Made by a program: the position numbers and the translations under genes. From assembly GCA_018433925.1 (NCBI GenBank), contig JAHDQI010000273.1:1-38712 (forward strand): a DNA stretch of 38,712 bases, given 5' to 3'. Positions 5,372-28,708 of the stretch are shown piece by piece (positions within the stretch are counted from its first letter, which is position 1; each line of letters begins with the position of its first letter). Under the pieces are notes generated by a model. It was not told where the DNA came from, made no database searches, and worked only from the letters and a program-made list of their open reading frames with translations. This DNA comes from Phycisphaerae bacterium (GTDB lineage Bacteria > Planctomycetota > Phycisphaerae > Sedimentisphaerales > Anaerohalosphaeraceae).

Positions 5372-5397
5372 TTTTTTTGTATAAAGGACACCCCCTG

Positions 5398-6549
5398 ATG
5401 AAAAAGATGTTTTATCCTGGACTTTTGTTGTTTGTCTGCGTCCTCTCTGCGAATGCCGCAACGGACGGCTGGGCCGATATGAACGGGGGCACCACAGGCG
5501 GCGCAGGCGGAACGGTGGTGACGGTAGACAATACGGCGGACCTTGAGTATTATGCCGAAGCGGGAACAACGCCCTATATCATTCAAATATCCGGAACGAT
5601 TGATATCGGCATCGGGGTCGTCGAAATCAGCGCGAACAAAACGCTCATCGGGATCGGCGAAAATCCGACACTTGTAGGCACCGTCGGTTTCAAAAATCGG
5701 GATGGGAATATCATCCTTGAGAACCTGAACATCACGAATCCCTGTACGTCAAGCAGTTGTGACGGCATCAGTTTAAAACAGGACATATATAATGTCCTTA
5801 TCACCAAATGCAGTTTCTATGACTGCGGCGACGGAAGTCTGGATATCTCCAACAATTCCGACTTTATTACCGTCTCCTGGTGTAAATTCTACTATACATA
5901 CGATAATGGTCATAACTTTGTAAGTCTCGTCGGAAGCAGTGACAGCCAGGGAGACGACGCGGCAAATCTTCGAGTCACATATCATCACAACTGGTGGACC
6001 ACCCTGTGCAAGGAACGAATGCCCCGCGTGCGTTATGGGCAGGTGCACGTCTATAACAATTACTACAGCAACCTGATGGCCGGCGGGTACTGCATCGGCG
6101 TTGGCTGCGGGGCGCGCATTCGGGTTGAGAATAATTACTTTAACGCGGTGCCGAATCCCTGGAAAGACTACTACAGCAGTACAAGTTATCCGGCGGGGCA
6201 TATTGGCTGGAATGCCGGTAATGTTTTCTACAGCTGCTCTCAGCCGACCTGGGCGGCCAATGAATACGCGACAATTTTCACGCCGCCGTATTCCTATCTT
6301 CTTCATGAGGCGGCGGACCTGCCGGTCATGGTGCAGGCGTATGCGGGCGCCGGAACCCCTTACCCGCCGCACTGGTTATTCGGCCTTTACGGCGACTTTG
6401 ACAAAAACGGGCAGGTTACGATCGATGATCTCGGGACATTCGTTGGGTACTGGCTGGCCGAGGATGACATTGACGATGCAGATTATGACGGCAGCGGAAT
6501 CGTTGATTCCATTGAATTCGCTCTCTTTGCGCAAAATTGGCTTCAGTAA
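5398..6549 (+). CDS. Second pectate lyase, PL1, with C-terminal dockerin-like pair
   Basis: 383 residues, a paralogue of the preceding lyase. The ATG at 5398 has AAAGGA at 5383-5388. An in-frame upstream start at 5362 would overlap the previous gene and spoil the signal peptide, so it was rejected. A signal peptide (~1-20) is followed by the PL1 beta-helix (~24-330). RMPRVRYG starts at Arg207, the same residue number as in the neighbour, which supports tandem duplication. The C-terminus (~332-383) is a dockerin-like pair with halves ending YWL and NWL. Unlike its partner it has no FN3 or CBM, so it may handle soluble or released pectin fragments (inference). An intrinsic terminator follows. 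Confidence 0.92.
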   Translation: MKKMFYPGLLLFVCVLSANAATDGWADMNGGTTGGAGGTVVTVDNTADLEYYAEAGTTPYIIQISGTIDIGIGVVEISANKTLIGIGENPTLVGTVGFKNRDGNIILENLNITNPCTSSSCDGISLKQDIYNVLITKCSFYDCGDGSLDISNNSDFITVSWCKFYYTYDNGHNFVSLVGSSDSQGDDAANLRVTYHHNWWTTLCKERMPRVRYGQVHVYNNYYSNLMAGGYCIGVGCGARIRVENNYFNAVPNPWKDYYSSTSYPAGHIGWNAGNVFYSCSQPTWAANEYATIFTPPYSYLLHEAADLPVMVQAYAGAGTPYPPHWLFGLYGDFDKNGQVTIDDLGTFVGYWLAEDDIDDADYDGSGIVDSIEFALFAQNWLQ

Positions 6550-6722: not shown

Positions 6723-6843
6723 ACATTCCAATAGACCCAACTGGTATTCTTCATTAACATCCTCTTTTGTTTTGCCGATCCTCTTCTGTTCGCTCATTTT
6801 GAATAAGTTCATCCTATCCGATTTTCGCATTAGGAGGTCAAAA

Positions 6844-9159
6844 ATGAAGAATATCGGTCAATCGGAGGGCAAAAAAAGGTTTTTGGCAGGGTTTTTGTTT
6901 GTGGTGTTTTTAACGGCCTATTCCCCATCACCGGCCTCGAAGGTACCTGGGGCAGACGATTTGTACAGCATGTCGCTGGCCCAGCTTATGGAGGTTGAAA
7001 TTTATGTGCCTGCCTCGATTACGGAAAAAAATCCCTTCAAAACCCCAGCCAGTGTGACGGTCATTACGGCCGAAGACATTGCCCGAACACCGGCGCGAAA
7101 TCTGCTGGACCTGATCGAGATTTACGTACCGGGCGCCCTGTATCTCAATCACAGTATCGGGCCGGTACCGGGAATTCGAGGGGTTGTTGCCGACCGTCCC
7201 TATAAATTCCTGATTAATGTCAACGGCATCAATGTCAATATAAAATCCCACTACGGCGCCCGTCTGGAGCTGCTGAACTGGGATATGAATGATATTGAGC
7301 GAATCGAAGTTGTGCGCGGCCCCGGTTCGGTTACCTACGGCCCGGGCGCTATCGGCGGAGTGATTAATATTACAACCAAAAAAGCCAAAAATCACCCCGG
7401 TGTTGAGTTGGGCGGCAGTTTCTGGGATCAATACGACAGCATCGGCAATTACGTCAGCTATGGTCATGAGTCTGAGGCATTTTCACTGTACAGCTATGTA
7501 AGCGTGGTCCACACATCCGGTCATACGCCGGATTTGTACGGGGCAGAAAATGAAGCGGAGTACGGCTATGTCGGTGATCCGGCCGGCCCGTACAATCCAA
7601 GGCCTCCGTTTACTTACCTGATGGATTATCAAGATGAGCCGCAGGTCAAGGCCATGATCGATTTTCATTTTAAGGAGAACTGGCGTTTCTGGGCCCGTTA
7701 TGTCACTTCTTCTACCGCGCTGACCCAGGCCTCGGCCGTAAAGTATGAAATCGACGGGAAATACCGGGACTTCCGGCAGAGCCGATTTCGATATTTCCAA
7801 CTGGCCCTTGAAAACCAGTCGCCGATTACGGATGAATTAAGCTTAAAATCCCTCTTTGGATTCAGTTCAATTGATGTTCACGATATTCAGAAGTACAGCA
7901 GTTCCATCGTCAATGACAAGGATAACCTCCAGAATATAGGATGGATCTGGTCTGAATGGGAATATTTTACCCAGTTTATGCTGAATTATAAGCCGGAGGA
8001 TGAACGGATGAAGGCCGCCGTCGGCGTGGAATTCAGTTACGACATGATTCGGCCTGCCTGGGGCAAAGACAAAGATGACGGAATCCGCATGTCCGATGGG
8101 ATTATCAGCGGACCTTCATCCGGGGGCTATGGAGAGGAGTACAGGCAGGTCAGTCCTACGCATGATGCCGAAAAATATTTTCCGGTCGGCAGCGGCTGGG
8201 ATACCCGTTCGTATGCTTTCCTCGGCGAGCTGAATTTTCAGCATACGCCCAAAATGCAGACGATCTGGTCGGCCCGACTGGACAAGCATACCTACACCGA
8301 TTATATGTTTTCTCCCCGCTTTGCGTGGATTTATGAGCTGGAAAAGGAGGCCTATCTCAAGTTTATCGCGCAGCGCTCAGTGCGTATGAACACGCAGGAA
8401 GAACTGTACATGAGCCATGAAATGGGGATTTCAAACAAGCCCGAAAAACTGGATACCTATGAAGTGATTTACTCCGGCCGGGCGGGAGAGAATCTGACGT
8501 ATCAGGCATCCGCGTTCTTGAATAAGAATAAAGTGATCGCGTGGGAAGGATCGCTCCGCCGCAGCGCCCTGATTGGAGAACTGCAAACATTCGGCCTCGA
8601 ATTTGAAACCCAGTACAAAAAAGATCATTTCAATATCGGGGCCAGCCATTCGTTTGTCAAGCAGCTCGACTGGGAACTGGATGACGAGGTGGCTGCCTCC
8701 GGCATCAGTTATTCGGACTATTATTACGATACCGGCAGCGGCATCATCGCCTCCAAAGGCAATGACCTGGCCAACTGGTCCAATCATGCGACCAAGCTTT
8801 TTATGAATGTGGATTTTCTGGACGGCAAACTGACCCTGCACGGCGACATGAGGACGCTGTGGGGTTTTGAGGGCTATAAGGACGGCCTGGATGCCCTTGA
8901 GGAGGCCGGCGGTACGCCTGAGATCATTGCCGCCATGCACGATCACGACGTGTTTGATCTTGAAGTTACGGCCAATGTCTCCCTTACCTATCATATCAGC
9001 AAGTCCGCGGATTTGACTGTGTTTGTGCACAACATTCCCGTGATCGGGGAGAATAAACGATACTCTTATTCATCGGGATACCGAAAAATCTTTCCGGACA
9101 AGACCAGTTGGATTGAAGAACCGACGGTGGTCGGTGTTCAATATCGTTTTCGTTTTTGA
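6844..9159 (+). CDS. TonB-dependent outer-membrane receptor
   Basis: 771 residues. The ATG at 6844 has a near-consensus AGGAGG (6832-6837); an in-frame ATG 24 codons earlier lacks one. An N-terminal hydrophobic signal (after KKRFLAG) is followed by DDLYSMSLAQLMEVE, a segment typical before the plug in this receptor type. The plug domain covers ~60-165, with TPASVTVIT, IRGV, IERIEVVRGPGSVTYGPGA and GGVINI. The rest is a beta-barrel ending in an aromatic strand (VVGVQYRFRF), as needed for BAM recognition. It imports a ligand using TonB/ExbBD energy; none of those genes are here. It is smaller than SusC and has no SusD neighbour. Uptake of pectin oligosaccharides is suggested only by location; a metal chelate or vitamin is equally possible. 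Confidence 0.9.
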   Translation: MKNIGQSEGKKRFLAGFLFVVFLTAYSPSPASKVPGADDLYSMSLAQLMEVEIYVPASITEKNPFKTPASVTVITAEDIARTPARNLLDLIEIYVPGALYLNHSIGPVPGIRGVVADRPYKFLINVNGINVNIKSHYGARLELLNWDMNDIERIEVVRGPGSVTYGPGAIGGVINITTKKAKNHPGVELGGSFWDQYDSIGNYVSYGHESEAFSLYSYVSVVHTSGHTPDLYGAENEAEYGYVGDPAGPYNPRPPFTYLMDYQDEPQVKAMIDFHFKENWRFWARYVTSSTALTQASAVKYEIDGKYRDFRQSRFRYFQLALENQSPITDELSLKSLFGFSSIDVHDIQKYSSSIVNDKDNLQNIGWIWSEWEYFTQFMLNYKPEDERMKAAVGVEFSYDMIRPAWGKDKDDGIRMSDGIISGPSSGGYGEEYRQVSPTHDAEKYFPVGSGWDTRSYAFLGELNFQHTPKMQTIWSARLDKHTYTDYMFSPRFAWIYELEKEAYLKFIAQRSVRMNTQEELYMSHEMGISNKPEKLDTYEVIYSGRAGENLTYQASAFLNKNKVIAWEGSLRRSALIGELQTFGLEFETQYKKDHFNIGASHSFVKQLDWELDDEVAASGISYSDYYYDTGSGIIASKGNDLANWSNHATKLFMNVDFLDGKLTLHGDMRTLWGFEGYKDGLDALEEAGGTPEIIAAMHDHDVFDLEVTANVSLTYHISKSADLTVFVHNIPVIGENKRYSYSSGYRKIFPDKTSWIEEPTVVGVQYRFRF

Positions 9160-9239: not shown

Positions 9240-12200
9240 CTACTTCTGGTTTTTGGGCCGGCCCAGCAGAAGGAGCGGGGAGGCAATCGCGATCGAGGAA
9301 TAGGTGCCGATGATAATCCCGATCAGCATGGCAAACGTAAAACCACGCAGGCCCGTTCCGCCCCAGATGTACATGAGCAGCACGACAAGAAATGTCGTAA
9401 ACGAGGTCAGCAGGGTTCGGGACAGGGTCTGGTTGATGCTGTCATTGATCAGCTTGGGAGTCAGGGCGTTTAATTTGCCTCGATTTTCACGGATTCGGTC
9501 AAAGACCACAATCGTATCATTCAGTGAATACCCGATGATTGTCAGAAAAGCGGCAATCATTTCGAGGTTAATTTTGAAATCCATGATTCCGAGGGCATTT
9601 CCAAGCGGGGTTCCGGCAATATAGGTACAAACGGTCACAATGCCCAGCGTAATGCAGACATCGTGTACAAGAGCGGCAATGGCCGCAAAGCCGTAGCGGG
9701 CCGTGCCGAATCGGAAACCGATGTAGAGCACAATCGCAATCAGCGACAGGATGATTGCCAGCAGCGCCCGGATTTTGGCCTGGGCTCCGATGGACGGGTC
9801 AATCTGTGTGACCCGAGCCAGTGAGCTTTCAATGGCCAGGGCGCTGAGAATCTTGGTTTTTTCATTGTCTGTGTACTGTTTCCATTCGTCTTCGGAAAGC
9901 GTGCGAAAACCGGCTTCCGGATGAGCGCTGACATAGACAAACTCACGGGCCGTTTCATCCTCAGAGAACTCCGTCAGGTCCGTATTCAAAAGCTGATACG
10001 GATACCAGTGCAGATCCTGCATGTCCCGTTTAAACTTGATGTCCTGAATCCGGGCCTTGAGCTCCTTGCCGCTGACGGGGGAAGACAGTGTGACGTCAAT
10101 TCGAAGTCCCCCGACGAAATCAGCCAGTTCCGGGACGGCCGCGGTGATCTCGCCGGCGGCGGTAATTTCCGGTTCGAGGTCTTCCCGTACATCCAGCAGA
10201 TCCTTGAACGCGGTGCGGATGGCATCGCTGACAACTTCATGTACCGTTACATCCGAAATCTCGGCGCTGTCTCCAAAGGCCTGCTGGAGCACTTCTTCCA
10301 CAAGCGATACATTGACCCGGTTTGTGGACACCTGAAAATGCCGCTCATTGACGGCTTTGACCTCAAGACCGGAAAGTGTCTGGCCCAGTTCCCGTGAAGC
10401 CGACTGAATTGCTTCCGTAACGGCAGCGGCGATTTGACCCGGCTGGGCGAAATGAATTTCAGCCGTGGTTCGATTGGTTTCCGTGGTCGTGATCTCATAT
10501 TGCAGGCCGCTTTCGCCGATGCTGTATACACGGGCGGCGGCCAGGGCCCGGTTGCCGATGGATTCGGCGTATTCGCGGAAGCGGTCTTCCACGATTTTAC
10601 GGGTATAGGCGGCGGCCGGACGCAGGTTGATCTGAGCGCTGGTGCCGCCGGTAAATTCGATATCATATTTGCTGTTTGCCGCTTCATCACGAGTGAAAAA
10701 GACCGCAAGTCCGCCGATGATAAGGATGACGGAAATCACCAGGAACAGCGGCCGCAGAGCCATCCAGTTGAGATTGACATTCTGCAGCATGCCGAACATG
10801 GTCAGCGGGTTGCTCAGGATCCGGCGGCTGATTAAGAAATCAAAGACCACACGGGTGACGAACAGGGCGGTGAACATGCTCGATATGATACCCAGCATCA
10901 GCACGATCGCGAATCCCTTGATTTCCTCAGAGGCCACCATCAGGAGAATAAACGCGACGCCGAAGGTGGTCAGGTTGGCGTCAAAGATTGTCCGAAATGC
11001 TCGGCCGTAGCCGTTGGCGATGGAAGCCCGCAGGGATGAACCGCGTTTTTGCTCTTCACGGATACGCTCGAAGATCAGCACGTTGGCGTCAACGCTCATG
11101 CCAATGGTCAGGATCAGACCGGCAATGCCCGGCAGGGTAAACGTGGCGTTAAAGGCGGCCATCATCGCCAACACAAAAATGATATTGAGCATCAGGGCCA
11201 TATCGGCAATGGCTCCGGCGACCCAGTAATAGCCGAACATGAAGATCGCCACCAGAATCAGTCCCCAAATGCCGGCTCGAATTCCCTTTTTCAGGTTGTC
11301 GGCACCGAGCAGGGGGCCAATGGTTTTTTCCGAAATGGGCACCTCGGAGAGTTTGGCGCGGAAGGAACCGGCATTCAGTTTGTTGACCAGGTCGGTCTGT
11401 TCCGTGGGCGAAAAACTGCCTTCGATGATGCCGGCCGAACTGATTGCGCTGCGGATGGTCGGTGCCGACAAGCCCCGGTCATCCAGGATGATGCACAACG
11501 GACGCTTCAGGTTATTCTTGGTCAGGGTGAAAAACATGTTGGACGCAACCTGGTTAAAGGAAAACCCGATGGCACGCAGTCCCTTGTCGTCCCGCGTGGG
11601 ATAAGCCCGCCGGAGTTTCCATTTTTTGTCTATTGTATGCAGCATGGTTTCGCCGGCCTGATTGCTGGCCAGCACAAAGGTCTTATCGCCGAACTGCCCG
11701 GTGATGCCGAGTCCCTGAGGCCAACCGGCGGGATCTTCGATCTCGATCCAGACGTAGCGGTTATCCGAGGCCTGTTTGGGCCCTTTGGTTCGCAGGGCTT
11801 CCTCGTACGCGCCCATTTCGTCCATGTTGGTTACGCCGTCGCCGGAAGTCGGGAGGATCCGAAATTCAAGAACGCCGGCGCCCTTGAGCATCCGTTTGAG
11901 ATCTTCCGGGTCATCCAGGGTACCGGCAACCTTGCGATATTCCTCAAAGACCTTTTCGGCTTGAGCAATCTTGTCCGCCCGATCCTGAAACTGTTCTTTG
12001 AGGGCATCGAGCGATTCTTTTCGCTTCAGCGAATCGGCGGGCAGCTCGAAAATATCCTGGAGCTGGTCAATGCTCAGGTTTAACTCGTTGAGCCCGGCAA
12101 CGGCCCGGTTCCACTGGATGTTGGCTCCGCTTTCCGGATCGGTCAGGGCGTTGACCGCCTGGGCCCACCGGTCAAACAGGGTGACGTATTCCTGCAGGGC

Positions 12201-12923
12201 CTTCAGCAACTGCTTTTGCTGTTCCGTAAGAGAGCCGTCGGTCTGCGGTGTTTCTCCCGGTTCAAGCGTCTGCTTAACAAAATCCGTCAGATCGGTTAGC
12301 CGCTTCGCGTTTGTCCGGCTCAGCCAGTCCGGCGCTCTCATGCGGATCTGATCGGGATCTACGGTGTCTTTGAACGGCTCAAGAAGGGCTTCCATTTGAG
12401 CGGCCGTTTCGTCCCGAAGACGTTGTTTTTCGGCGCGCAGATCGAAGGCCTCGGCCAGCGCCTGAAGAATCCTCAAACGATCGGCATCGTCTCCGGCAAA
12501 TCGTTCCAGCTCGGTTTTGCGAACCTCCGGATCGAGAGACAGAGTTTTCTTGATTTGAAGCAGGTTGGTGTTTTCTCTTTCGAGAGCCGCCAGCGCTTCT
12601 TCATAGGCCTGGCGTTTCTTTCGGGTTTCAGGGCTGGAAACCGGAAGCTGGATCTCGATGCGCGTATCTTCCTGCGGACGCATCACGATGTTGGCCATGT
12701 GCGTCGGATCAATTCGCTTGAGGAGGATGGGGATCATGCTCTCGGCAAGCCCTTTGCGCTCCTCAGGGGAAAGGCCCGTGGTGTCAATTTCATACACCAA
12801 ACTCGTTCCGCCGGCCAGGTCCAGTCCCAGCTTCAGCTTCTCCTGCGGCGGATAGACCACCCACAACGCCAAAAGAGCCAGTGCGATAACAAATAGCAGC
12901 TTCCAGATCAGATTTTTATTCAT
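9240..12923 (-). CDS. secDF: Protein translocase SecDF, fused and unusually long
   Basis: 1227 residues. SecD and SecF are fused into one inner-membrane protein that uses the proton gradient to pull exported proteins through SecYEG. SecD half: TM1 (~8-24), the LGLDLAGGTSLVYEID motif (~32-47), and GMSVDANVLIFERIREE (~607-623) in the TM4 region. SecF half: TM ~715-735, YDIEFTGGTSAQ (~749) and YSLNDTIVVFDRIREN (~1133-1148). It exceeds the E. coli SecD plus SecF total (about 940) by nearly 300 residues. Much of the excess is a charged, coiled-coil-like stretch at ~85-335, plus an enlarged SecF periplasmic domain (~750-1030). It lies 40 nt after yajC in the classic tgt-yajC-secD-secF order. GGAACC precedes the ATG. 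Confidence 0.96.
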   Translation of the reverse strand: MNKNLIWKLLFVIALALLALWVVYPPQEKLKLGLDLAGGTSLVYEIDTTGLSPEERKGLAESMIPILLKRIDPTHMANIVMRPQEDTRIEIQLPVSSPETRKKRQAYEEALAALERENTNLLQIKKTLSLDPEVRKTELERFAGDDADRLRILQALAEAFDLRAEKQRLRDETAAQMEALLEPFKDTVDPDQIRMRAPDWLSRTNAKRLTDLTDFVKQTLEPGETPQTDGSLTEQQKQLLKALQEYVTLFDRWAQAVNALTDPESGANIQWNRAVAGLNELNLSIDQLQDIFELPADSLKRKESLDALKEQFQDRADKIAQAEKVFEEYRKVAGTLDDPEDLKRMLKGAGVLEFRILPTSGDGVTNMDEMGAYEEALRTKGPKQASDNRYVWIEIEDPAGWPQGLGITGQFGDKTFVLASNQAGETMLHTIDKKWKLRRAYPTRDDKGLRAIGFSFNQVASNMFFTLTKNNLKRPLCIILDDRGLSAPTIRSAISSAGIIEGSFSPTEQTDLVNKLNAGSFRAKLSEVPISEKTIGPLLGADNLKKGIRAGIWGLILVAIFMFGYYWVAGAIADMALMLNIIFVLAMMAAFNATFTLPGIAGLILTIGMSVDANVLIFERIREEQKRGSSLRASIANGYGRAFRTIFDANLTTFGVAFILLMVASEEIKGFAIVLMLGIISSMFTALFVTRVVFDFLISRRILSNPLTMFGMLQNVNLNWMALRPLFLVISVILIIGGLAVFFTRDEAANSKYDIEFTGGTSAQINLRPAAAYTRKIVEDRFREYAESIGNRALAAARVYSIGESGLQYEITTTETNRTTAEIHFAQPGQIAAAVTEAIQSASRELGQTLSGLEVKAVNERHFQVSTNRVNVSLVEEVLQQAFGDSAEISDVTVHEVVSDAIRTAFKDLLDVREDLEPEITAAGEITAAVPELADFVGGLRIDVTLSSPVSGKELKARIQDIKFKRDMQDLHWYPYQLLNTDLTEFSEDETAREFVYVSAHPEAGFRTLSEDEWKQYTDNEKTKILSALAIESSLARVTQIDPSIGAQAKIRALLAIILSLIAIVLYIGFRFGTARYGFAAIAALVHDVCITLGIVTVCTYIAGTPLGNALGIMDFKINLEMIAAFLTIIGYSLNDTIVVFDRIRENRGKLNALTPKLINDSINQTLSRTLLTSFTTFLVVLLMYIWGGTGLRGFTFAMLIGIIIGTYSSIAIASPLLLLGRPKNQK

Positions 12924-12963: not shown

Positions 12964-13392
12964 TTATTTCTTTTCTTCCGATAAAACCGCGCCGATCGCG
13001 GACGGGATAATATGAATTTTTGTGTTGTTGGATTCGTCAATTTTCAGAACGATGTCGTCCTGCCGGACATCGACCACCGTTCCGTAGATGCCTCCGATGG
13101 TTCGAACCCGGTCATTTTTCGTCAGGGAGGAGACCATCTTCTTGTGTTCCTGCTGTTTCTTGCGGGGACCTCGGAACAGGAGCAGATACATCACGACAAT
13201 AATCAGCAAAAAAGGCAGCAGTTGAACCAGCGGATTGGCCGGGGGTCTTTCGGCAACCTCCGTCTGCTCCGGGGTTCCATTGGCGCCTTCCTGTACGGTT
13301 GTGTTTTGCTGCGACTCGGCCGGTTCCATTGTAATGACTTCGGTTGTGTCCGAGGCCGGGTCAGCTCCGGCAAGTATCCAGATCGATTTCAT
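12964..13392 (-). CDS. yajC: Preprotein translocase accessory subunit YajC
   Basis: 142 residues from the ATG at 13392, chosen because AGGAAGG precedes it and it leaves a 19-nt gap after tgt. Longer in-frame starts would overlap tgt. An acidic, Gln/Thr-rich N-terminal segment (~10-50) precedes the single membrane helix (LLPFLLIIVVMYLLLF, ~58-73). A basic RGPRKKQQEHKKM stretch and the YajC beta domain follow (NDRVRTIGGIYGTVVDV, DESNNTKIHI). YajC associates with SecDF at the translocon. The N-terminal extension before the helix is longer than in E. coli YajC and its role is unknown. Confidence 0.93.
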   Translation of the reverse strand: MKSIWILAGADPASDTTEVITMEPAESQQNTTVQEGANGTPEQTEVAERPPANPLVQLLPFLLIIVVMYLLLFRGPRKKQQEHKKMVSSLTKNDRVRTIGGIYGTVVDVRQDDIVLKIDESNNTKIHIIPSAIGAVLSEEKK

Positions 13393-13411
13393 GTTTTTTG
13401 TTCCTTCCTGC

Positions 13412-14542
13412 TTAGGATTCATTCTCTTCGATTCCGTTCGGTTTCCGAGTTCGAATAAACTCTTCTGACCATACGCCAAATGACCCGTCGGCGATACGGT
13501 CCCGAATTCGGGTCATAAGTCGTTGATAATACGTTAAATTATGGATTGTCGCAAGGATCGGTCCGAGCATTTCGCCGACATTAAAAAAATGGCGGATGGC
13601 CGACCGCGAAAAATTTCGGCAGGTCGGACAGGGACAATCCCGCTCTATCGGGTCCGGATCGCTGCCGTGAATGCTGTTTCGCAGGCGAATGGCCCCGTTT
13701 TCCGTAAATGCAAAGCCGTTTCGACCGTTCCGGGACGGCAGTACGCAATCAAACATATCCACACCCGCCCGTACGGCGGCCACGATATCAACCGGCATTC
13801 CGACTCCCATCAGGTAGCGGGGTTTCGACTCCGGCAGGCCGGCGGCGGTATGGGCGACTGTTCGAATCATCGCTTCATGTCCTTCCCCGACGCTCAGGCC
13901 CCCCACGGCGTACCCATCAAAGTCCATCGGGATCAGGGCATCCAGGCAGCGGTCCCGAAGCGAGAGATCCACCCCTCCCTGGATGATCCCAAACAGCATT
14001 TGGCGGGGATTGTCGTGGCTTTCTTTACATTGTCGGGCCCAGCGAACCGTCCGCTCGACGGCTTTTTCGATCCGCTCCGTTTCACAGGGGTAGGGAGTGC
14101 ATTCATCAAAGCACATAATGATATCCGCTCCCAGCCGATTTTGAATCCGGGTTGCGATTTCGGCATTCAGAAAAATCGGTCGGCCGTCAATATGACTGGC
14201 GAATTCCACGCCGTCCTCACCCACACGATTCAATGAGCTGAGCGAAAAAACCTGGTAGCCGCCGCTGTCCGTCAAAATCGGTCCGTCCCAGGCCGTAAAA
14301 CGATGCAGTCCTCCGAGGGACTCGACGATATCCACGCCGGGCCGAAGCAGCAGATGGTACGTATTGGACAGCATGATCTGCGCCCCGGTTTCACGAAGCG
14401 TCTGCGGCAGGATTCCTTTGACGCAGCCGCGGGTTCCGACCGGCATGAAGGCCGGGGTCAGGGCGGTTCCGTGTGCTGTATGCAGCTTGCCCAGACGTGC
14501 CCGGCGGCCGGGCTCTGTTTGTGCGATTGTAAATGCGTTCAT
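13412..14542 (-). CDS. tgt: Queuine tRNA-guanine transglycosylase
   Basis: 376 residues, full length. It exchanges guanine-34 for the queuosine precursor preQ1 in tRNAs with GUN anticodons. The TIM-barrel family signature is complete: SNTYHLLLRPG, TDSGGYQVFSL with the general acid/base Asp92, GIIQGG, AVGGLSVGE, YLMGVG, and the nucleophile Asp265 in MFDCVLPSRNGRNG. The zinc site is Cys303, Cys305, Cys308 and His334. Its ATG overlaps the stop of the upstream SpoIID gene in an ATGA, indicating translational coupling. Linkage to yajC-secDF is common across bacteria. Confidence 0.97.
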   Translation of the reverse strand: MNAFTIAQTEPGRRARLGKLHTAHGTALTPAFMPVGTRGCVKGILPQTLRETGAQIMLSNTYHLLLRPGVDIVESLGGLHRFTAWDGPILTDSGGYQVFSLSSLNRVGEDGVEFASHIDGRPIFLNAEIATRIQNRLGADIIMCFDECTPYPCETERIEKAVERTVRWARQCKESHDNPRQMLFGIIQGGVDLSLRDRCLDALIPMDFDGYAVGGLSVGEGHEAMIRTVAHTAAGLPESKPRYLMGVGMPVDIVAAVRAGVDMFDCVLPSRNGRNGFAFTENGAIRLRNSIHGSDPDPIERDCPCPTCRNFSRSAIRHFFNVGEMLGPILATIHNLTYYQRLMTRIRDRIADGSFGVWSEEFIRTRKPNGIEENES

Positions 14543-15846
14543 CCCTGTTCTTTCAGGCGGACCAACTGGCTGCCCGGATAATAGTACTGCAGTATTTCAG
14601 AAAACGACGATCCCGAGCGAGCCAGGGCCTGCGCTCCGCTCTGGCAAAGCCCTGTGCCGTGCCCGAATCCCCGTCCTTCAACAAATTCAAAACCGCGGTC
14701 CGTCCGGTGAATGGTGAAAATCGCGCTTTTCAGTTTTCGTCCGCTCGGATCAAGAGCCAGTCGAAAATCCTCCCCTCGCAAAAAGGCGGTTCTCCCGTTT
14801 GTTCCGGTTAAACGAACCGAGACGATACGCCCGATCTCGGACTGCTGAGCCGCTTCAATTTGCTCAATGGATTCGAGACGGGCCAGGGACGGATACCGAC
14901 CCAGCAGCCGCCGGGTAATCTCCTCTCGTGAAAACAACGGTCCTGTCCAGTAAAAATAGTCCGACCGGGTCGTTTTTCTGCAATAGGGACACTCCACTCC
15001 CCGGAGAACCGAAAACGAATCTCCGAAAATAAACCGGCTGTTTTCCGTATGGCCTCCGCAGGCGGAGCTGTAGTACGCCGGAAAGATTGTGCGTTTTCCG
15101 CTTTTGTCCGGGCAGACCAAAACAATCCCCGCCGTCTGAAAAACGGCCTCATTGGTAGGGGCCGTCTCGGCCGCCATTCCTCTGTAGACCTGGTGGGCCT
15201 GACTGCGTCTTACGTCCCAGTCGCGTCCGCGTCCAAACCGATGTTTAATAAACAGGCAGTACGTTCGGGAAGCGACCGCCTGGGCCTTCAGCGCCTCCGG
15301 TTCCCAATAACTTTGCATCTCTGCCGCGATCACGCCGCAAAGATACGATTCCACAGGCACATGGTTAATCGCCGAAAAGGTCATCCCGTCATCGTTTCGC
15401 GAAAGACGAAGATGACCGCGAAAAGGCAGTTCATTGACGGTAAAGACAAACGGCGTTTCCGTTTGGATCATCATGTCCCCATCAAACAGGTGCTCCCCGA
15501 TCCGCAGTTTCCCTGCATCCATTCGCACGGTCAGCGCCTGATTCGGCCGGTTAAAACGGGCCGTTACGCCCATCTCCCTGTCTTCGATGACCAGGTTGCC
15601 GTACCCGCTGATGACACATTCATTCAGGTTGCCAAAGAGCAGCACGCGAATCCAGCAGGCCTCCGGCTGCTGCATTCCACGTGTTTCCGTTGCATGCGGA
15701 CGTCTGGAACAGCCCGCGCACAACCCGACGCATACCATACAGGCCCACAGCCATTGTCTTTTGGCTACTGCGGGCCTGCGCTGATAGATGAATCGGTACA
15801 ACGTCCTGAAATACGTCCTGAAATACGCTTGTGCTGTTTCACTCAA
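14539..15846 (-). CDS. SpoIID/LytB-domain lipoprotein, probable peptidoglycan lytic enzyme or amidase enhancer
   Basis: 435 residues from a TTG at 15846, 7 nt after the upstream gene, with GAGG about 6 nt before. No better start gives a usable signal sequence. The N-terminus is basic, then WACMVCVGLCAGC looks like a lipobox-type signal with Cys46 as the lipidated residue, although the -3 residue is Cys. The SpoIID domain follows: GVIAAEMQSYWEPEALKAQA with the expected catalytic Glu176, ASRTYC, YYSSACGGHTENS, and near the C-terminus GRGFGHGTGLCQSGAQALA and YYPGS. SpoIID proteins are lytic transglycosylases or enhance amidases acting on cell-wall glycan. No sporulation genes are nearby, so a vegetative cell-wall role is inferred. 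A short tandem repeat encodes YFRTYFRT at the N-terminus. Confidence 0.85.
   Translation of the reverse strand: MSETAQAYFRTYFRTLYRFIYQRRPAVAKRQWLWACMVCVGLCAGCSRRPHATETRGMQQPEACWIRVLLFGNLNECVISGYGNLVIEDREMGVTARFNRPNQALTVRMDAGKLRIGEHLFDGDMMIQTETPFVFTVNELPFRGHLRLSRNDDGMTFSAINHVPVESYLCGVIAAEMQSYWEPEALKAQAVASRTYCLFIKHRFGRGRDWDVRRSQAHQVYRGMAAETAPTNEAVFQTAGIVLVCPDKSGKRTIFPAYYSSACGGHTENSRFIFGDSFSVLRGVECPYCRKTTRSDYFYWTGPLFSREEITRRLLGRYPSLARLESIEQIEAAQQSEIGRIVSVRLTGTNGRTAFLRGEDFRLALDPSGRKLKSAIFTIHRTDRGFEFVEGRGFGHGTGLCQSGAQALARSGSSFSEILQYYYPGSQLVRLKEQG
15801..15827. repeat. 12-bp tandem repeat in the 5' end of the SpoIID gene
   Basis: ACGTCCTGAAAT occurs twice back to back, followed by ACG (2.25 units). 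The unit is four codons, so copy changes would keep frame and only alter the YFRT repeat at the protein's N-terminus. Confidence 0.85.
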
Positions 15847-15853
15847 GCCGGCC

Positions 15854-17143
15854 TCATTCGAGTGTTCGCAGACTCAGACCAAACTGGCTGAGCTTGTCCT
15901 TGATCTCGTTGAGACTGGTTACGCCGAAGTTTTTGCAGCCGAGAAGCTCGGCTTCTGTCTTGTTAATGATATCCAAAACGGACTTGACGCCCAGGCGGGA
16001 CAGCGCGCGTCTGGCCCGGACGGACATTTCCAGATCATCGACTGTTTTCGAGAGAATTTCCTGGCTGGCTCCCTGGGCGGCCGTTGTTTCTGCCGCGGCA
16101 ATATTCTTGTCTTCGAGAGCCATCCCGAGACGAAGTCCCTTGGAATCGAGAATCTTTTTGATTTCGAGCAGGGAGGTTTCTCCGAAATTCTTATAGGAAA
16201 GCAGATCGGCTTCTGTGGTTCTCAGCAGATCGCCGATGGTATCGATGTTCATCTTTTTGAGGCAGTTTCGGCTGCGCACGGACAATTCAAAATCAGAGAT
16301 GGGGATTTCCAGTATCTTATTCTGCCGATCCCGCCGTTTCTCCCGCTCCTCATCATAAATCATGACCTTAGAGCTTTCGATGTCTTTGCGGAACAAAATG
16401 GCCTTGGCATGATTGGGATGCGAACGCAGGACTCTGTCCACGCAGCGGGTGGCTTTCTCATATTCTCCCCGGTCTTCGTAGAGTACCGCCAGGTTCAGCA
16501 GCGCATTTACATGGGCCGGCTGCTCTTTGACAATCAGACGGTATTGTTCGACGGCGACCTCTTCATCGCCCCGCAGATCGCAGGCATAGGCCAGCGCGAA
16601 CCGGGCTTCGGTGTGAGCCGGATCCAGATCGACGGCTGTTTGGTAGTTCTGCATGGCTTTTTCATACTGGCCCTGTGCATCCTGAAGCCGCCCGAGCTGA
16701 AAATGATACTCCGCGCTGACATTCTCAAAGTTGCCGTAGGCGGCCAGTTCTTTTTCCGCGGCGGTCAGATCACCGGCCATGCAGAGCGTGGCGGCTTTTT
16801 CCATGGCCGCGGTCATGCCGTCTGATTCCTTCTTGGCCGCCTTGTCAAATTCGCTGACGGCTTTTTCATAGTGCTTTTTCCGGCGATAGGCATATCCCAG
16901 GCCCATGTGCTTCTGTCCGCAGTCGGATGCTTGTTCGAGTTTTTCGATGGCCTGATTCACCTGTCCGCAAAACAGATACGCCAGACCAGCGGCCAGAGGA
17001 TCCTTGTGTCGAGAGGCCTTGTCCAGAACATCCAAACGCATGCGTTCGCTTGCATTGAGCTGCGGCCAAAGCTTCTTCAGTGCGTCTGCCGACGGGACTT
17101 CCTTTTCGAACAACTCTTTGCCTGCACCCGTTACGCTTGCCAT
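15854..17143 (-). CDS. TPR protein with two RNA polymerase alpha-subunit C-terminal-like domains
   Basis: 429 residues; TAGGAG precedes the ATG by 7 nt. Residues ~50-260 are tetratricopeptide repeats (e.g. AEYHFQLGRLQDAQGQYEKA, AHVNALLNLAVLYEDRGEYE). A charged stretch (~262-278) leads to alpha-CTD-like domain 1 (~282-342). A ~25-residue Ala/Thr/Glu linker leads to domain 2 (~367-429). Compared with E. coli alpha, domain 1 keeps R265 (Arg290), N268 (Asn293), C269 (Cys294), G296 (Gly321), S299 (Ser324) and E302 (Glu327), but K298 is Thr323. Domain 2 keeps Arg265 (Arg376), Gly407, Ser410 and Glu413, but has Arg379 and Ala380 at the 268/269 positions. There is no alpha N-terminal or catalytic polymerase part. 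DNA or polymerase-factor binding is inferred; the function is unknown. It is first gene of the SpoIID-tgt-yajC-secDF operon. Confidence 0.85.
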   Translation of the reverse strand: MASVTGAGKELFEKEVPSADALKKLWPQLNASERMRLDVLDKASRHKDPLAAGLAYLFCGQVNQAIEKLEQASDCGQKHMGLGYAYRRKKHYEKAVSEFDKAAKKESDGMTAAMEKAATLCMAGDLTAAEKELAAYGNFENVSAEYHFQLGRLQDAQGQYEKAMQNYQTAVDLDPAHTEARFALAYACDLRGDEEVAVEQYRLIVKEQPAHVNALLNLAVLYEDRGEYEKATRCVDRVLRSHPNHAKAILFRKDIESSKVMIYDEEREKRRDRQNKILEIPISDFELSVRSRNCLKKMNIDTIGDLLRTTEADLLSYKNFGETSLLEIKKILDSKGLRLGMALEDKNIAAAETTAAQGASQEILSKTVDDLEMSVRARRALSRLGVKSVLDIINKTEAELLGCKNFGVTSLNEIKDKLSQFGLSLRTLE

Positions 17144-17265
17144 ATAGACACTCCTAAACTTGAATCGGTTTATCTTATGCAGACCGCCTGAAGGGGAAGT
17201 CTGCCATTTGCTTTCCTGACTCGGCAGTATCCAAATTCCGCCGGAAGGAATCGAATAAACCGGAC

Positions 17266-17293
17266 ATTATACGGATGCGGTAAAAAAAAGCAA
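17266..17293 (-). promoter_or_regulatory. Candidate promoter of the TPR/alpha-CTD operon
   Basis: Read leftward, TTGCTT (17288-17293), a 16-nt spacer and exact TATAAT (17266-17271) lie about 120 nt before the start codon. The -35 match is only partial. An AT-rich dyad AAAAAGC-N4-GCTTTTT overlaps its upstream edge. Confidence 0.4.
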
Positions 17294-17441: not shown

Positions 17442-18482
17442 ATGAAAATGTCGCGTTTGATAGGTATAATCGGGCTGTTTTTGCTGGGCGGATTGGCTGT
17501 TTTGTCCGTTTATGGGGCTTTTTTGGGGGCTGAAAACGCAGGCCGTTTTTTCAGGTCGCCGCCGCTGGCTATGATGTGGATTATTCTTGTCCTGATCTTG
17601 GCCGGCGGAATCGTCTTTTTCCGCCGACTGCGGACTCGTCCCTTTCTTTTTCTAACTCATGCCGGATGTCTGCTGGTGCTTTTGGGAGGATTGTGGGGTT
17701 CCGAGAAAGGAATTCATTTTCGAAATCATTTCTTTGGCTCTAAGGGCTTCACAAAGGGATTGATCCCGTTGTATGAGGGGCAGAGTTCCCCTATTCTTCA
17801 TGATTATGAAGGGCATGTGCAAGGGCAACTGCCTTTTGAAATCCATCTGCATGCCTTTGAGGTGCAGTATTATGATGGGCCTCAGTTCATCATTCACGAC
17901 AAAGCGGACCCGCGGCATCTATATACCATCCCTGTCGAAGCCGGGCGGACATTTTTTTTGGGCCCATCGGAACAGGCCGTGGAATTTGGCATTGTTCGCT
18001 CCTTTAAAAACCTTCAGATTCGCATCGTCGAAGGCGGGGTTGCCGCGGTGGAAGGTCCGGAGGATTTACCCAATCCGGGCCATGAGGTGCAGTTTGTTCT
18101 GCCTGACGGCGGCCGGGAGATTCAATATGTATTCGAGCGGCACGAGCTACACAGTCTCCCGAAGTACCGTTTTGAGGTCCGGTATTGTCCGCCGCAGATG
18201 CCGAAGGAGTATGCCAGCCAGTTGAGCATTATAGAGAACGGACAGGAACAGGTTCGCAAACGCATCCGGGTCAACGATCCGCTCTTTTATAAAGGATACC
18301 TGTTTCATCAAAATTCGTGGGGACAGGATCACCGGGGGCTTTACAGTGTGATTGGGGTGGTCAGCAACAGCGGGCTGGCGGCGGTTTTTGCGGGGTACGG
18401 GATGCTTGCGATTGGGCTTTTCGGCGGGTTGTGGATCTTGCCGGCGGCCGACTGGTTTCGAAAGAAGGGGGAGACGACGTAG
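17442..18482 (+). CDS. ResB/Ccs1-like cytochrome c biogenesis protein
   Basis: 346 residues. It is the partner of CcsA in System II cytochrome c maturation, holding apocytochrome and haem on the outer face of the inner membrane. There are three N-terminal membrane helices (~6-28, ~43-62, ~67-86, the last THAGCLLVLLGGLWGS being ResB-like) and a large external domain. That domain ends with RVNDPLFYKGYLFHQNSWG, matching the ResB 'plsykGy.fyq' motif. A final helix lies near 310-335. It is shorter than typical ResB (often above 450), but the four-helix topology is kept. TTGAGG precedes the ATG. The stop codon abuts the ATG of ccsA. Confidence 0.82.
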   Translation: MKMSRLIGIIGLFLLGGLAVLSVYGAFLGAENAGRFFRSPPLAMMWIILVLILAGGIVFFRRLRTRPFLFLTHAGCLLVLLGGLWGSEKGIHFRNHFFGSKGFTKGLIPLYEGQSSPILHDYEGHVQGQLPFEIHLHAFEVQYYDGPQFIIHDKADPRHLYTIPVEAGRTFFLGPSEQAVEFGIVRSFKNLQIRIVEGGVAAVEGPEDLPNPGHEVQFVLPDGGREIQYVFERHELHSLPKYRFEVRYCPPQMPKEYASQLSIIENGQEQVRKRIRVNDPLFYKGYLFHQNSWGQDHRGLYSVIGVVSNSGLAAVFAGYGMLAIGLFGGLWILPAADWFRKKGETT

Positions 18483-19268
18483 ATGGAAATCAAGCATTCG
18501 CTGCTGGGGTCGATAATTTATCTGGCTATGGCACTGTATTTTTTGTCGGTTGGGACACGGCTTGCCGGTTTCAAAAAGCTCCGGCATCTCTTTTTCGCGG
18601 CCGGGTTTGCCGCGGCGGCAGGGGCCTGGACGCTCCGATGGGCCCAGACAGGTCATATCCCCATGCAGACCATGGTTGAGGTATTTTTGACGCTTGGGAT
18701 GGTTGTCGGACCGGTTTCACTGTTTTGTCAGCGGTTTTTGAAGATCAGGGATACCCTGGCCCTGGCCGGGGATGGTTTGCTGGGAGTGGTGATTTTGTTT
18801 CCGGCCGGATTTATCTTTGCCGAGCGGCCGGTACCGCTGCCGCCGGCTCTGCAAAGCCCGCTGTTCGGACCGCATGTGGCCGTGTATATGCTTGCGTATA
18901 TCGTAATGGCCAAGGCGGCCTTCCAGGCGACGGCGGGGTTGTTTGGAAGAAGGGCCGGCCGACGTGAAAGGGAGGCCTATAATCTGGTCCGGCTGGGTTT
19001 TCCACTATTGACGGCCGGACTGCTGCTGGGCAGTGTCTGGGGCAAGCTGGCCTGGGGCGACTGGTGGGGTTGGGACCCAAAGGAACTCTGGTCACTGGCC
19101 TGCTGGCTGGTGTATGCGTTTTATTTTCACTGGCGTGCTTTCTTTGGCAGACGTTTTTTGAAAATCAATCTTTCTCTGGCCGTTGTGGGTTTGGGGTGCA
19201 TCCTGTGCACACTTCTCTGGGTAAACCTTTCGCGGCTGTTTATAGGCCTGCATAATTATGCGTCCTGA
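18483..19268 (+). CDS. ccsA: Cytochrome c assembly protein CcsA/CcsB family
   Basis: 261 residues, polytopic. The family brings haem to the periplasmic side and ligates it to CxxCH apocytochromes together with ResB/Ccs1. The WWD haem-handling motif is plain: WGDWWGWDPKELWSL at ~190-204. A conserved histidine follows in YFHWRAF, and others include HIPMQTMVEV and the C-terminal LHNY. It begins directly after the ResB stop (TAGATG), so the two are certainly co-transcribed and probably coupled. It is slightly short for the family. Its presence implies c-type cytochromes in an organism that otherwise looks anaerobic. Confidence 0.9.
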   Translation: MEIKHSLLGSIIYLAMALYFLSVGTRLAGFKKLRHLFFAAGFAAAAGAWTLRWAQTGHIPMQTMVEVFLTLGMVVGPVSLFCQRFLKIRDTLALAGDGLLGVVILFPAGFIFAERPVPLPPALQSPLFGPHVAVYMLAYIVMAKAAFQATAGLFGRRAGRREREAYNLVRLGFPLLTAGLLLGSVWGKLAWGDWWGWDPKELWSLACWLVYAFYFHWRAFFGRRFLKINLSLAVVGLGCILCTLLWVNLSRLFIGLHNYAS

Positions 19269-20667: not shown

Positions 20668-21606
20668 TTACATCAGGTTTTCGCTGTACCAGCCAATTGC
20701 ACTGGTAAGACCATCGGCAAAGGAGACAACCGGCCGATAGCCGATCAGGGCCTCGGCCTTACTGATGTCGGCCAGGGAATGCTTGACATCCCCGGGGCGG
20801 GGGTCGGTGTAGATCGGCTTGACGTTTTTGCCGAGGTGTTCGTTAATCAGCCGAATAACCTCATTGAGAGTGACACGGCTGCCGCAGGCAATGTTGATCG
20901 CCTCGCCGGAGGTCCTGGGGGCGCGGGCGGCCAGCAGATTGGCATGGACCACATTGTCGATATAGGTAAAGTCGCGGCTTTGCTCGCCGTCGCCGTAGAT
21001 TGTCGGCGGTTGTTCCCGGAGAATACCTGTGACAAAGGCCGGAATGGCCGCCGCGTACTGGCTCTTGGGGTTCTGATAGGGTCCAAAGACATTAAAATAA
21101 CGCAGGCAGATGGTCTCCAGTCCGAAAACGCCTGAAAAAACGCTGCAATAATATTCGCCAAACAGCTTGGCGGCCGCATAAGGCGAGCGGGGATTGGGGG
21201 CCATCGATTCGATCTTCGGCAGGGTGGGGCTGTCGCCATAGGCCGATGAACTGGCGGCGTAGACAAATCGCTTGATCTTCGCGTTACGAGCGGCCATCAA
21301 AAGCGTAAATGTGGCATCCACACAGTGCTGATGGGTTGCGGCCGGGTTTTCCACGCTGAGCGGCACCGACGGCAGGGCTCCCTGATGCAGAACCACATCG
21401 ATATCCTGCATACACTGACGGGCCACGTCCGGGTCTCCCATATCCGCTTCGATAAACTCGATGGAATCGATCACATCGGCCAGGTTGCTTTTCTTGCCGG
21501 TCAGCAGGTTGTCCACCACCCGCACCGAGGCGCCTTCATGAACAAGACGCCGGCAGAGATTCGAGCCGATGAATCCGGCCCCGCCCGTAATAAGAAATCG
21601 TTCCAT
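20668..21606 (-). CDS. NAD-dependent UDP-sugar 4-epimerase (WbpP-like)
   Basis: 312 residues, full-length extended short-chain dehydrogenase. The Rossmann signature is GGAGFIGSN (8-16), SSSAYG supplies the catalytic Ser/Thr region, and Y143-xxx-K147 is the catalytic pair. Several stretches resemble the UDP-GlcNAc 4-epimerase WbpP of Pseudomonas: HQGALPSVPLSVENP, FVYAASSSAYGD, LRYFNVFGP and GDGEQSRDFTYIDNVV. The likely reaction is UDP-GlcNAc to UDP-GalNAc or UDP-Glc to UDP-Gal, in the cytoplasm, feeding the adjacent polymer pathway. It is the last gene of the operon, 21 nt after the kinase gene. Substrate choice within the family is inferred. Confidence 0.88.
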   Translation of the reverse strand: MERFLITGGAGFIGSNLCRRLVHEGASVRVVDNLLTGKKSNLADVIDSIEFIEADMGDPDVARQCMQDIDVVLHQGALPSVPLSVENPAATHQHCVDATFTLLMAARNAKIKRFVYAASSSAYGDSPTLPKIESMAPNPRSPYAAAKLFGEYYCSVFSGVFGLETICLRYFNVFGPYQNPKSQYAAAIPAFVTGILREQPPTIYGDGEQSRDFTYIDNVVHANLLAARAPRTSGEAINIACGSRVTLNEVIRLINEHLGKNVKPIYTDPRPGDVKHSLADISKAEALIGYRPVVSFADGLTSAIGWYSENLM

Positions 21607-21627
21607 GCCGAGGGGGTTCCTTTCTGA

Positions 21628-23916
21628 TTAGACGTTGGGGTTGACGTGAACCTGCTGATATTCCAGGTAGGATCGATAGAATTCCTGGAAATAGCCGCCT
21701 TTGTGACTCTTGACGCCCATCAGCACGGCCCCGACGGTATTGGCCTGGATGGACTGCAATTCCCTCAGGATACGCATGGCCTCGCCGCGGTGCGTGGAGG
21801 TGGCGTTAAAGACCACAACGGTTCCGTCGCAGTGTGCCGCCAGTGTTTTGGCGTCGCTGACCAGAAGAGGCGGGCCGTCGATAATCACATGGTCATATTT
21901 GTTCTTGCAGTGCTCCAGCAGTTTATCCATCCGCGGGCTGTCAAGCAGTTCGGCCGGGCTTGACGGCAGGGGACCGCTGTCGATGATGTCCAGGCCGGGC
22001 AGTCCGCTTGGCCGGATGATCTGCTCGGCCTCCGAGCACTGACCCATCAGGTAATTGCTCAGGCCGAAGTCGGCATGTTCGATGCGGGCGCCGGTTTCTC
22101 CCGTCCGGGGAAACAGATGCCCCGTGGCGGGCCTGCGGAAGTTGGCGTCAATGAGAACCACTTTCTTGTTTTCGGCCAGCATGGTGCTGGTCAGATTCGT
22201 CGCGACCGTGGTTTTGCCGTCCCCGGCATCCGGGCTGGTCACAAGCAGTGTTTTGTGCTCCGCCGCCCCGGCCGAAAGCTTCATATTGGTCCGCAACTGC
22301 CGATAACATTCGCTCATGATCGAGTAGGGGGCCTGTCGCACCACATGGCTCAGATCGACGCCCTCGATATCGTCATCGTCATCGACATGGCAGATACTGC
22401 CGAGCAGGGGGGCCTTCAGGTGACGCATGACGTCGCTGGGCGTACGCACCAGGTCGTTGAGCAGCTCAATGGCAAAGGCCAGCCCTACGCCGGCCAGCAG
22501 GCCCAGCAAAAACCCGGCCGGCAGGAAAATCTGCCACCGCGGCGAACTCATCCGCAGCGGGACGGGGGCCATTCCTAAACTGCGGAGTTTGCTGATATCC
22601 GGGCTGTCATTCAAGGCACGCAGACTTTCGATATGTGCGTTAATTTTCTCAAGTTGCCCCTGTTTTTCCTCCCGCTGAATTTCCCATTTGGCATATTCCG
22701 ACCGGTCGTCGTCAACCTTTTTGTATTCATCCCGGGCCCGCTGAAGCTGCTGTGTAATGGATTCAAGCTGCTGATTCAACGCGGCCATTTCATCCTGCAC
22801 AAGCTGCCACTGCGATTTTCGCTGGATTTCAGCAATTTCGATTTTCCTTGCGTCCAGATCGCTGAGATACTGGTTGCGGGCCTGCCGGGTTTCGTGAACC
22901 CGGCGGTGGTTTTCGCCGAAACGGGCCAGTTGCTGAGCCAGCAGCGCCTCGATGCCGTTGATGGAGTTCTGGAGTTGACGGACGATTGCGTCCTGTTCCA
23001 CAGTCTGCTGAACTACCTGGTCATAATCGGCTTCCGTCGCCCGTTTCTCCACGGTGGCCAGAATCACCTGAAGCCGGTTCCTCTGGGCCTCAAGATTGCT
23101 GAACTCATCGTACAGATTGCCTAATTTTTGATCCATGTAATCCCGGAAATTCGCGCCTTCGATGTTGAGCCGCGCAAAGTCGCTTCCGGCCCGAAGGGAA
23201 TCAAGGCGATCCTGGATCGTGCGCAGGCTGGTCTGCACCTGCTGTCGCTGTCTTTCTTCCGATGCAAGCTGCTCGGAAATGGTGGACCGGGCCTTTTCCC
23301 GTTGATCGGCCAGGTAGATTCGAACCATTTCATTGACAATCGCCGCTGCTTCCCGTGCATCGCCGCAGGTCATGGAAACGCGGATGAAATCCTGATCCCG
23401 CGGTGCCGAGGCGCCCAGGTTTTTCTCAAGATCTCGAATGGCATCACTGATACTCGTTTCCACCAGTTCACCAAGCTTATTTCGCTTTTCGTATTTGCTG
23501 AACCATTTGGTTTGGCGAATGGAATCCAGGTCCAGAAGCGATTGCAGCATGTCCTGCTGTTTCATCAGCGTTGCCTTGGTCAGGCGGAACTGGTAAAACA
23601 GGTCTTTCTGGGGCTGAACCGTGGAGAATTCCCGCGGATCGCTGGTGACCGGGGCAAGCACGTTAATGCCTGTGGTCGCCGTGTATTTCGGGGCATATCG
23701 ACGAAGCAGGTAATACGTCGCCCCGCCGCCAACCAGGCCGACAAACGTGAAAATCAGTATCATCCAGATATGCCTGCGCACGATTCCCAGAATTTCCTTG
23801 GGAGTTAACGTCACCCCGGCCGCCGCCGCAGTCGGCGCCGGCATTCGCATCAGGGCCGCATTGGGCGCAATCGGTCCCGTCATTCCGTGTATGACCCGTT
23901 TTATCTGATCTGCCAT
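21628..23916 (-). CDS. Polysaccharide chain-length regulator fused to BY-type tyrosine kinase (Wzc-like)
   Basis: 762 residues. It controls polymer length and export by cycles of autophosphorylation at the inner membrane. The N-terminal Wzz domain begins with a membrane helix (WMILIFTFVGLVGGGATYYLL split by position, ~50-70). A long periplasmic coiled-coil region follows (~190-440). A second helix lies at ~462-487 (FLPAGFLLGLLAGVGLAFAI). The cytoplasmic kinase has Walker A SPDAGDGKTT (~555-565), Walker A' VVLIDANFRRP and Walker B HVIIDGPPLL. In Walker A' the second Asp of the usual DxD is Asn. The tail has the expected tyrosine cluster (YFQEFYRSYLEYQQ). It is 40 nt after the giant TPR gene. 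Confidence 0.92.
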   Translation of the reverse strand: MADQIKRVIHGMTGPIAPNAALMRMPAPTAAAAGVTLTPKEILGIVRRHIWMILIFTFVGLVGGGATYYLLRRYAPKYTATTGINVLAPVTSDPREFSTVQPQKDLFYQFRLTKATLMKQQDMLQSLLDLDSIRQTKWFSKYEKRNKLGELVETSISDAIRDLEKNLGASAPRDQDFIRVSMTCGDAREAAAIVNEMVRIYLADQREKARSTISEQLASEERQRQQVQTSLRTIQDRLDSLRAGSDFARLNIEGANFRDYMDQKLGNLYDEFSNLEAQRNRLQVILATVEKRATEADYDQVVQQTVEQDAIVRQLQNSINGIEALLAQQLARFGENHRRVHETRQARNQYLSDLDARKIEIAEIQRKSQWQLVQDEMAALNQQLESITQQLQRARDEYKKVDDDRSEYAKWEIQREEKQGQLEKINAHIESLRALNDSPDISKLRSLGMAPVPLRMSSPRWQIFLPAGFLLGLLAGVGLAFAIELLNDLVRTPSDVMRHLKAPLLGSICHVDDDDDIEGVDLSHVVRQAPYSIMSECYRQLRTNMKLSAGAAEHKTLLVTSPDAGDGKTTVATNLTSTMLAENKKVVLIDANFRRPATGHLFPRTGETGARIEHADFGLSNYLMGQCSEAEQIIRPSGLPGLDIIDSGPLPSSPAELLDSPRMDKLLEHCKNKYDHVIIDGPPLLVSDAKTLAAHCDGTVVVFNATSTHRGEAMRILRELQSIQANTVGAVLMGVKSHKGGYFQEFYRSYLEYQQVHVNPNV

Positions 23917-23956
23917 TCGATAAACTCCTGATCGGTAAACAATAAGGTTGTATGGG

Positions 23957-28687: not shown

Positions 28688-28708
28688 ATCAATACCTGTT
28701 TAATGATT

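Follow-up and report, generated by a model that had tools for sequence, protein, structure and literature searches.

The C-terminal domain of the alpha subunit (αCTD) is the main dock of bacterial RNA polymerase for promoter DNA and activators, and it is normally tethered to the enzyme by the N-terminal domain of the same subunit (αNTD). The locus described here raises the question of what a pair of such domains might do on a protein that has no such tether. It lies in a 38,712-nucleotide stretch of a contig from a Phycisphaerae bacterium (JAHDQI010000273.1; the whole stretch is hereafter the window), where an ORF codes for a 429-residue protein, P0001, which joins tetratricopeptide repeats (TPRs) to two αCTDs.

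A TPR scaffold joined to two αCTDs

The gene occupies positions 15854-17143, exactly as the preliminary description had it, and is read from the minus strand, with its ATG at 17143, its last codon at 15857 and a TGA at 15854-15856. An AGGAG seven bases before the ATG (17151-17155, minus strand) is a probable ribosome-binding site. A possible promoter with A/T-rich DNA upstream, TTGCTT-16-TATAAT, can be read at 17266-17293 on the same strand; its -35 element is weak and it is absent from the promoter-scan listing. Divergently from this gene, ResB- and CcsA-like cytochrome c biogenesis genes are encoded on the plus strand (17442-19268), a pair that recurs in close relatives.

Pfam recovers TPR families and two RNA_pol_A_CTD stretches in P0001 (PF03118; E=3.8e-42, 142.3 bits against a cut-off of 23.8), with each of the two αCTDs above the PF03118 cut-off when scored separately. 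Several Pfam TPR models also score above their cut-offs, and the helix pairs in the predicted structure correspond to the 34-residue TPR pattern. Both families are likewise matched by every one of the aligned homologues (69/69). When the single domains were compared with PDB chains using phmmer, the first (αCTD1) gave 3e-17 and the second (αCTD2) 7e-13; the remaining matches are RNA polymerase alpha chains, except for one designed protein in the αCTD2 list (5.9e-6). The rpoA models, on the other hand, are covered only in their C-terminal part, from about model position 210 onward, and far below their cut-off; hence, the αNTD is absent, and P0001 cannot enter polymerase as a subunit. Thus, the Pfam, phmmer and rpoA-model results together bear out the initial reading of a stand-alone protein with TPRs, tandem αCTDs and no αNTD. 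The same genome codes for one separate, full and ordinary RpoA, and for no further αCTD.

The AlphaFold2 model of the whole protein (mean pLDDT 89.1, pTM 0.64) lays out helix pairs as far as about residue 260, then a helix (265-278), αCTD1, a linker that is disordered at 347-356, and αCTD2; at this pTM the placement of the domains relative to each other is uncertain. On this basis, five segments can be distinguished, all on the minus strand. The TPR scaffold, of about six repeats, spans residues ~46-260 (16364-17008), with block pLDDT values mostly above 93. It is followed by a linker helix (residues 261-276; 16316-16363), in which the columns of M261, D264 and E265 are kept in 114, 113 and 111 of 118 homologues, respectively. 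Next come αCTD1 (residues 277-343; 16115-16315) and a flexible linker (residues 344-361; 16061-16114), which varies more than anything else in the C-terminal half and has pLDDT below 50 at 347-356. The protein closes with αCTD2 (residues 362-427; 15863-16060).

Structure searches with the full-length model returned mostly TPR proteins, and the likeness of the TPR part to many TPR superhelices is too general to be informative; the last 175 residues were therefore folded separately (pLDDT 75.5), and these match αCTDs. The modeled αCTD2 superposes on the E. coli αCTD with Z 13.6 and an rmsd of 1.2 Å over 67 residues, so that the αCTD likeness first read from the sequence is matched by the predicted fold. 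It also aligns with αCTDs taken from DNA complexes (1lb2, Z 12.7; 3n97, Z 12.5), and the αCTD-DNA complexes among the fold matches of the C-terminal model include 1lb2, 3n97 and 9zum. Foldseek further aligned the Caulobacter crescentus αCTD bound to AT-rich DNA (rmsd 0.8) and the Vibrio cholerae αCTD (rmsd 1.3), both at 53-55% identity; these rows probably belong to αCTD1, because that identity fits αCTD1.

With repeat starts set at residues 76, 110, 144, 178 and 212, the helix-A positions on the concave side of the last three repeats show an entropy of 1.35 bits against 2.31 bits at the other non-structural positions (Mann-Whitney p=3e-4), whereas the first two repeats show no conservation difference between concave and other positions. 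This selective conservation of the concave face, which is lined by F182, D189, N217, E223 and D224, implies a fixed protein partner; the natural reading is that the TPR groove holds a specific, conserved protein ligand, and its acidic residues suggest that the bound segment is basic.

Conservation and ancestry of the αCTD pair

In αCTD1, the UP-element-contacting residues equivalent to E. coli R265, N268, C269, N294, G296, S299 and E302 are R290, N293, C294, N319, G321, S324 and E327, and every one of them is present in 118 of the 118 distinct homologues aligned. The sigma-facing residues D259 and E261 correspond to D284 and E286, which are kept in 115 and in all 118 homologues, respectively. 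R265 and N268 make minor-groove and backbone contacts (PMC11434276), and D259/E261 stimulate transcription through R603 of sigma70 (PMC5511352); the Thermus αCTD, which is without some of the contact residues, gives no response to an UP element (PMC5511352). The sigma arginine (in an HPxR motif) is found in 24/24 of the Planctomycetota housekeeping sigma tails read, including that of the window's own genome.

In αCTD2, the R265 equivalent is R376, and positions 268 and 269 are taken by R379 and A380. Across the 118 homologues, this arginine is kept in 117, the N294, G296 and S299 equivalents in 114 each and the E302 equivalent in 117, while a basic residue, Lys or Arg, fills position 268 in 106, and Ala (59) and Cys (57) are the main residues at 269. 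The local Arg/Ala pair is, by this alignment, one version of a basic-residue rule and no local change. The residues that the preliminary description listed for both domains are thus confirmed, and the loss of Arg290 or Arg376 that was looked for in homologues turned up in none of the 118 and in one, respectively. Its suggestion that the two domains have different partners fares less evenly: the residue difference stands, but αCTD2, though basic at 268, has not been emptied of residues for DNA binding, so that it may differ in how it contacts DNA and not in what it binds.

By column conservation, αCTD1 is the most conserved part of the family: 35 of its 67 columns are more than 95% conserved among the 118 homologues, against 11/66 in αCTD2 and 15/205 in the TPR region. 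In phylum-wide samples of 23 sequences of the TPR-αCTD-αCTD family and 31 of RpoA, αCTD1 has the lowest mean column entropy (0.77), followed by the RpoA αCTD (1.19), αCTD2 (1.47) and the TPRs (2.11); αCTD1 is thus held under tighter conservation than the αCTD of polymerase itself in the same phylum. It also differs from the latter by fixed or nearly fixed residues, namely Arg 267, Lys 272, Met 273 and a Glu in place of Lys at 297 (R292, K297, M298 and E322 in P0001), which adjoin the 265 surface and are absent or rare in RpoA of the phylum. These differences mark it as a distinct, specialized αCTD, the surface of which may have been adapted to bind a protein, or DNA other than promoters.

The family is found in 287 of 292 Planctomycetota genomes in a phylum-wide draw (E<=1e-30), with one match each, the single exception being one gene split across two contigs; the occurrence in planctomycetes mentioned in the preliminary description is thereby supported. 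Of the five genomes with no match, three contain short fragments of the αCTD region, and RpoA is all that turns up in the other two. All 40 of the nearest genomes give a match, which is a long, full-family one in 39. The best 80 loci from 84,980 species genomes, scanned in a pattern-limited way, are all labeled as Planctomycetota lineages, bar two that carry only the label "uncultured bacterium". In a tree of αCTDs, the αCTD1 copies form one supported clade and the RpoA copies another, with αCTD2 outside both; with 68 columns, this tree is usable for its main splits only, and one mis-extracted RpoA sequence falls outside as a long branch. The separation of αCTD1 from the RpoA αCTDs argues that the fusion is old, and the simplest reading of these data is a single ancient fusion that has been vertically inherited.

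We considered a spread by phages or plasmids and rejected it: no relative was found in the viral contigs searched, and among the matches listed from plasmid and phage records those with an annotation are rpoA, many others being without one. A loss of the RpoA αCTD in some lineages, with the P0001 family replacing it, was suspected from truncated rpoA matches and was likewise dropped; of five apparent truncations, three are long linkers with an intact αCTD and two are cut by contig ends. In RpoA of the planctomycete families to which L168, L169 and L170 belong (genomes G140, G125 and G077), a long, low-complexity linker rich in Gly, Pro, Ala and Met runs from the αNTD to the αCTD; because of such linkers, the rpoA models seem to stop before an intact αCTD.

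A predicted role at promoters and its alternatives

The reading that we favor, with a probability of about one half, is that P0001 is a phylum-wide, single-copy and vertically inherited accessory transcription factor of the Planctomycetota, in which a detached αCTD pair is mounted on a peptide-binding TPR scaffold. Its αCTD1 would use the R265-type surface to dock in the minor groove at AT-rich (UP-like) stretches of promoter DNA and, like polymerase's own αCTD, the D259/E261-type surface to touch sigma region 4. With its flexible linker of ~18 residues and its Lys or Arg at 268, αCTD2 would bind a neighboring groove through contacts that are less sequence-specific and directed more at the phosphates. 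A conserved partner, be it a polymerase subunit, a sigma factor or an adaptor, would sit in the groove of the last three TPRs; P0001 might deliver this partner to promoters or stabilize it there, or else might add αCTD contacts to those of RpoA. The protein would thus offer tandem minor-groove domains on a flexible linker, as two alpha subunits do, on a scaffold with a ligand of its own. We infer DNA binding, contact with sigma or polymerase, a positive effect and the identity of the TPR ligand from the sequence, which cannot tell activation from insulation or competition.

Several points count against this reading, among them the possible retuning of the αCTD1 surface and the uncertain domain placement described above. 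RpoA keeps its own αCTD, and the need for an extra one is therefore not obvious. Conserved gene order ties the P0001 gene to ruvCAB, tgt and secDF and not to transcription genes. In the window, it is followed on the same strand by spoIID-tgt-yajC-secDF. A gene for a SpoIID-domain protein (14539-15846, minus strand; Pfam SpoIID 5.9e-24), the ORF of which starts a few bases after the P0001 stop, is probably co-transcribed with it. It is succeeded, all on the minus strand, by tgt, coding for queuine tRNA-ribosyltransferase (13412-14542; Pfam TGT 3.1e-153), yajC (12964-13479; Pfam YajC 8.5e-25) and a secDF fusion (9240-12923; Pfam SecD_SecF_C 1e-71). Close to where the spoIID reading frame begins, TATTTCAGGACGT is present twice as a short direct repeat (15790-15830); the true start codon may lie downstream of the TTG at 15846.

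The order ruv-que-tgt-yajC-sec is common in bacteria. In one deep lineage (L216), a P0001 homologue heads ruvC-ruvA-ruvB-queH-spoIID-tgt-yajC-secDF, and in three others (L206, L209 and L213) it heads the same cluster without ruvC, while in further lineages often only ruvA, spoIID or tgt still adjoins the family gene. Across 140 loci, which include a few near-duplicates and some contigs that end early, the family gene is followed by spoIID in 76 cases, by ruvA in 29, by tgt in 8, by ruvC in 2 and by queH in 1. The local neighbors are, as judged from these comparisons, the remnant of an ancestral cluster headed by the P0001 gene and running from ruvC through secDF, which reflects the joining of this gene to an old cluster that later broke up differently among lineages. 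Hence, the gene order says little about function. The initial notion of a protein-export and wall-turnover operon with this gene at its head is weakened by the inclusion of ruvC-ruvA-ruvB-queH in the cluster headed elsewhere, and we discarded the operon as an argument about function.

The rest of the window carries genes of other kinds. On the minus strand, an exopolysaccharide/exosortase locus (20668-32080) codes for an NAD-dependent epimerase, an AAA_31/Wzz chain-length protein, the exosortase EpsH, a Poly_export/SLBB protein and a 1576-residue TPR protein that is possibly PrsT-like; beyond it, the same strand codes for a single-chain pyruvate:ferredoxin oxidoreductase of 1194 residues (33256-36840). 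On the plus strand, two consecutive pectate lyase genes lie at 3485-6549, the first with a CBM6/35 module; the gene after them (6772-9159) encodes a TonB-dependent receptor plug domain.

We weighed three further explanations, which in order of possibility are DNA anchoring with no role in transcription, a decoy and a pure protein adaptor. It is conceivable, if unlikely, that P0001 is a DNA-bound scaffold outside transcription initiation, with its αCTDs anchoring the TPR adaptor on the chromosome for nucleoid organization or for recombination and repair with RuvABC. Such a role would suit the placement of the family directly before ruvA in 29 of 60 phylum-wide loci and before ruvC in 2 more, the intact ruvC-ruvA-ruvB cluster headed by its homologue in deep lineages, and an αCTD2 that is more basic than a normal αCTD. 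However, elsewhere it is spoIID or tgt, and not ruvA, that is retained, as an eroding ancestral cluster predicts; moreover, the D259/E261 equivalents of αCTD1 are as conserved as its DNA positions, a constraint that anchoring alone does not need. Less likely still is that P0001 acts as a decoy or anti-activator, mimicking the RpoA αCTD so that UP elements, activators or Spx-like αCTD-binding proteins are titrated away and activated transcription is damped. The retention of both the 265 and the 261 faces by an αCTD1 with no αNTD for polymerase entry is what one would look for in such a mimic; but a pure decoy need not exceed its model in conservation, and this explanation accounts neither for the conserved TPR groove nor for the near-universal single copy. 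An adaptor that binds no DNA, with αCTD1 docking a conserved protein via its 265-type surface, perhaps to assist polymerase assembly or the handling of sigma, would make use of the αCTD1-specific residues beside that surface. It is improbable, since no position of the full DNA-contact set varies, not even the G296 and S299 equivalents, which is what a DNA ligand would lead one to expect.

The accessory transcription factor that we favor also has a bolder form, which we regard as possible rather than probable: P0001 might be a phylum-defining general transcription factor with a second, polymerase-independent αCTD pair, such that promoter recognition in the Planctomycetota would draw on at least four αCTDs of two different origins, linked to a conserved partner by the TPR scaffold.

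Relation to known systems

Transcription in the Planctomycetota has, to our knowledge, been little studied. The TPR-αCTD-αCTD architecture presumably stands already among planctomycete database entries; its component domains and their annotation are known, and our literature search found no paper on the architecture as such. The main text of the essential-gene study of Planctopirus limnophila (PMC10632474) does not name the P0001 orthologue. The interest of the family rests on its near-universality in the phylum, its single copy, its strong constraint and the directness with which it can be tested. A near-universal, single-copy αCTD pair off polymerase, one member of which is more constrained than RpoA's own, suggests an extra part of promoter activation that is phylum-wide. 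As P. limnophila is a planctomycete species with working genetics, this prediction is directly testable.

The closest likeness is to the RpoA αCTD (PF03118), with which P0001 shares the fold, the five-helix layout and the 265 and 261 determinants; identity to solved αCTDs is ~53-55% for αCTD1 and ~43-45% for αCTD2. Unlike RpoA, it has no αNTD, carries its αCTDs in tandem on one chain, is fused to TPRs and displays the fixed residues specific to αCTD1. The hypothetical stand-alone αCTD-like family NF005841/PRK07758 of NCBIfam likewise shows αCTD-like sequence that is not part of a full RpoA model, but P0001 matches it weakly (40 bits against a cut-off of 115), and it is a 95-residue model with neither TPRs nor a tandem. 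For the scaffold, the Bacillus subtilis protein YrrB (PDB 2q7f; Foldseek E 5.6e-6) offers a comparable soluble bacterial TPR fold with a peptide-binding groove, but it has no αCTD. In distribution, the parallel is with RbpA and CarD of the Actinobacteria, phylum-specific general transcription factors that are near-universal and single-copy with a presumed role at housekeeping promoters. Their folds are unrelated to that of P0001; the likeness lies in the distribution and in the presumed promoter role, which for P0001 is a prediction.
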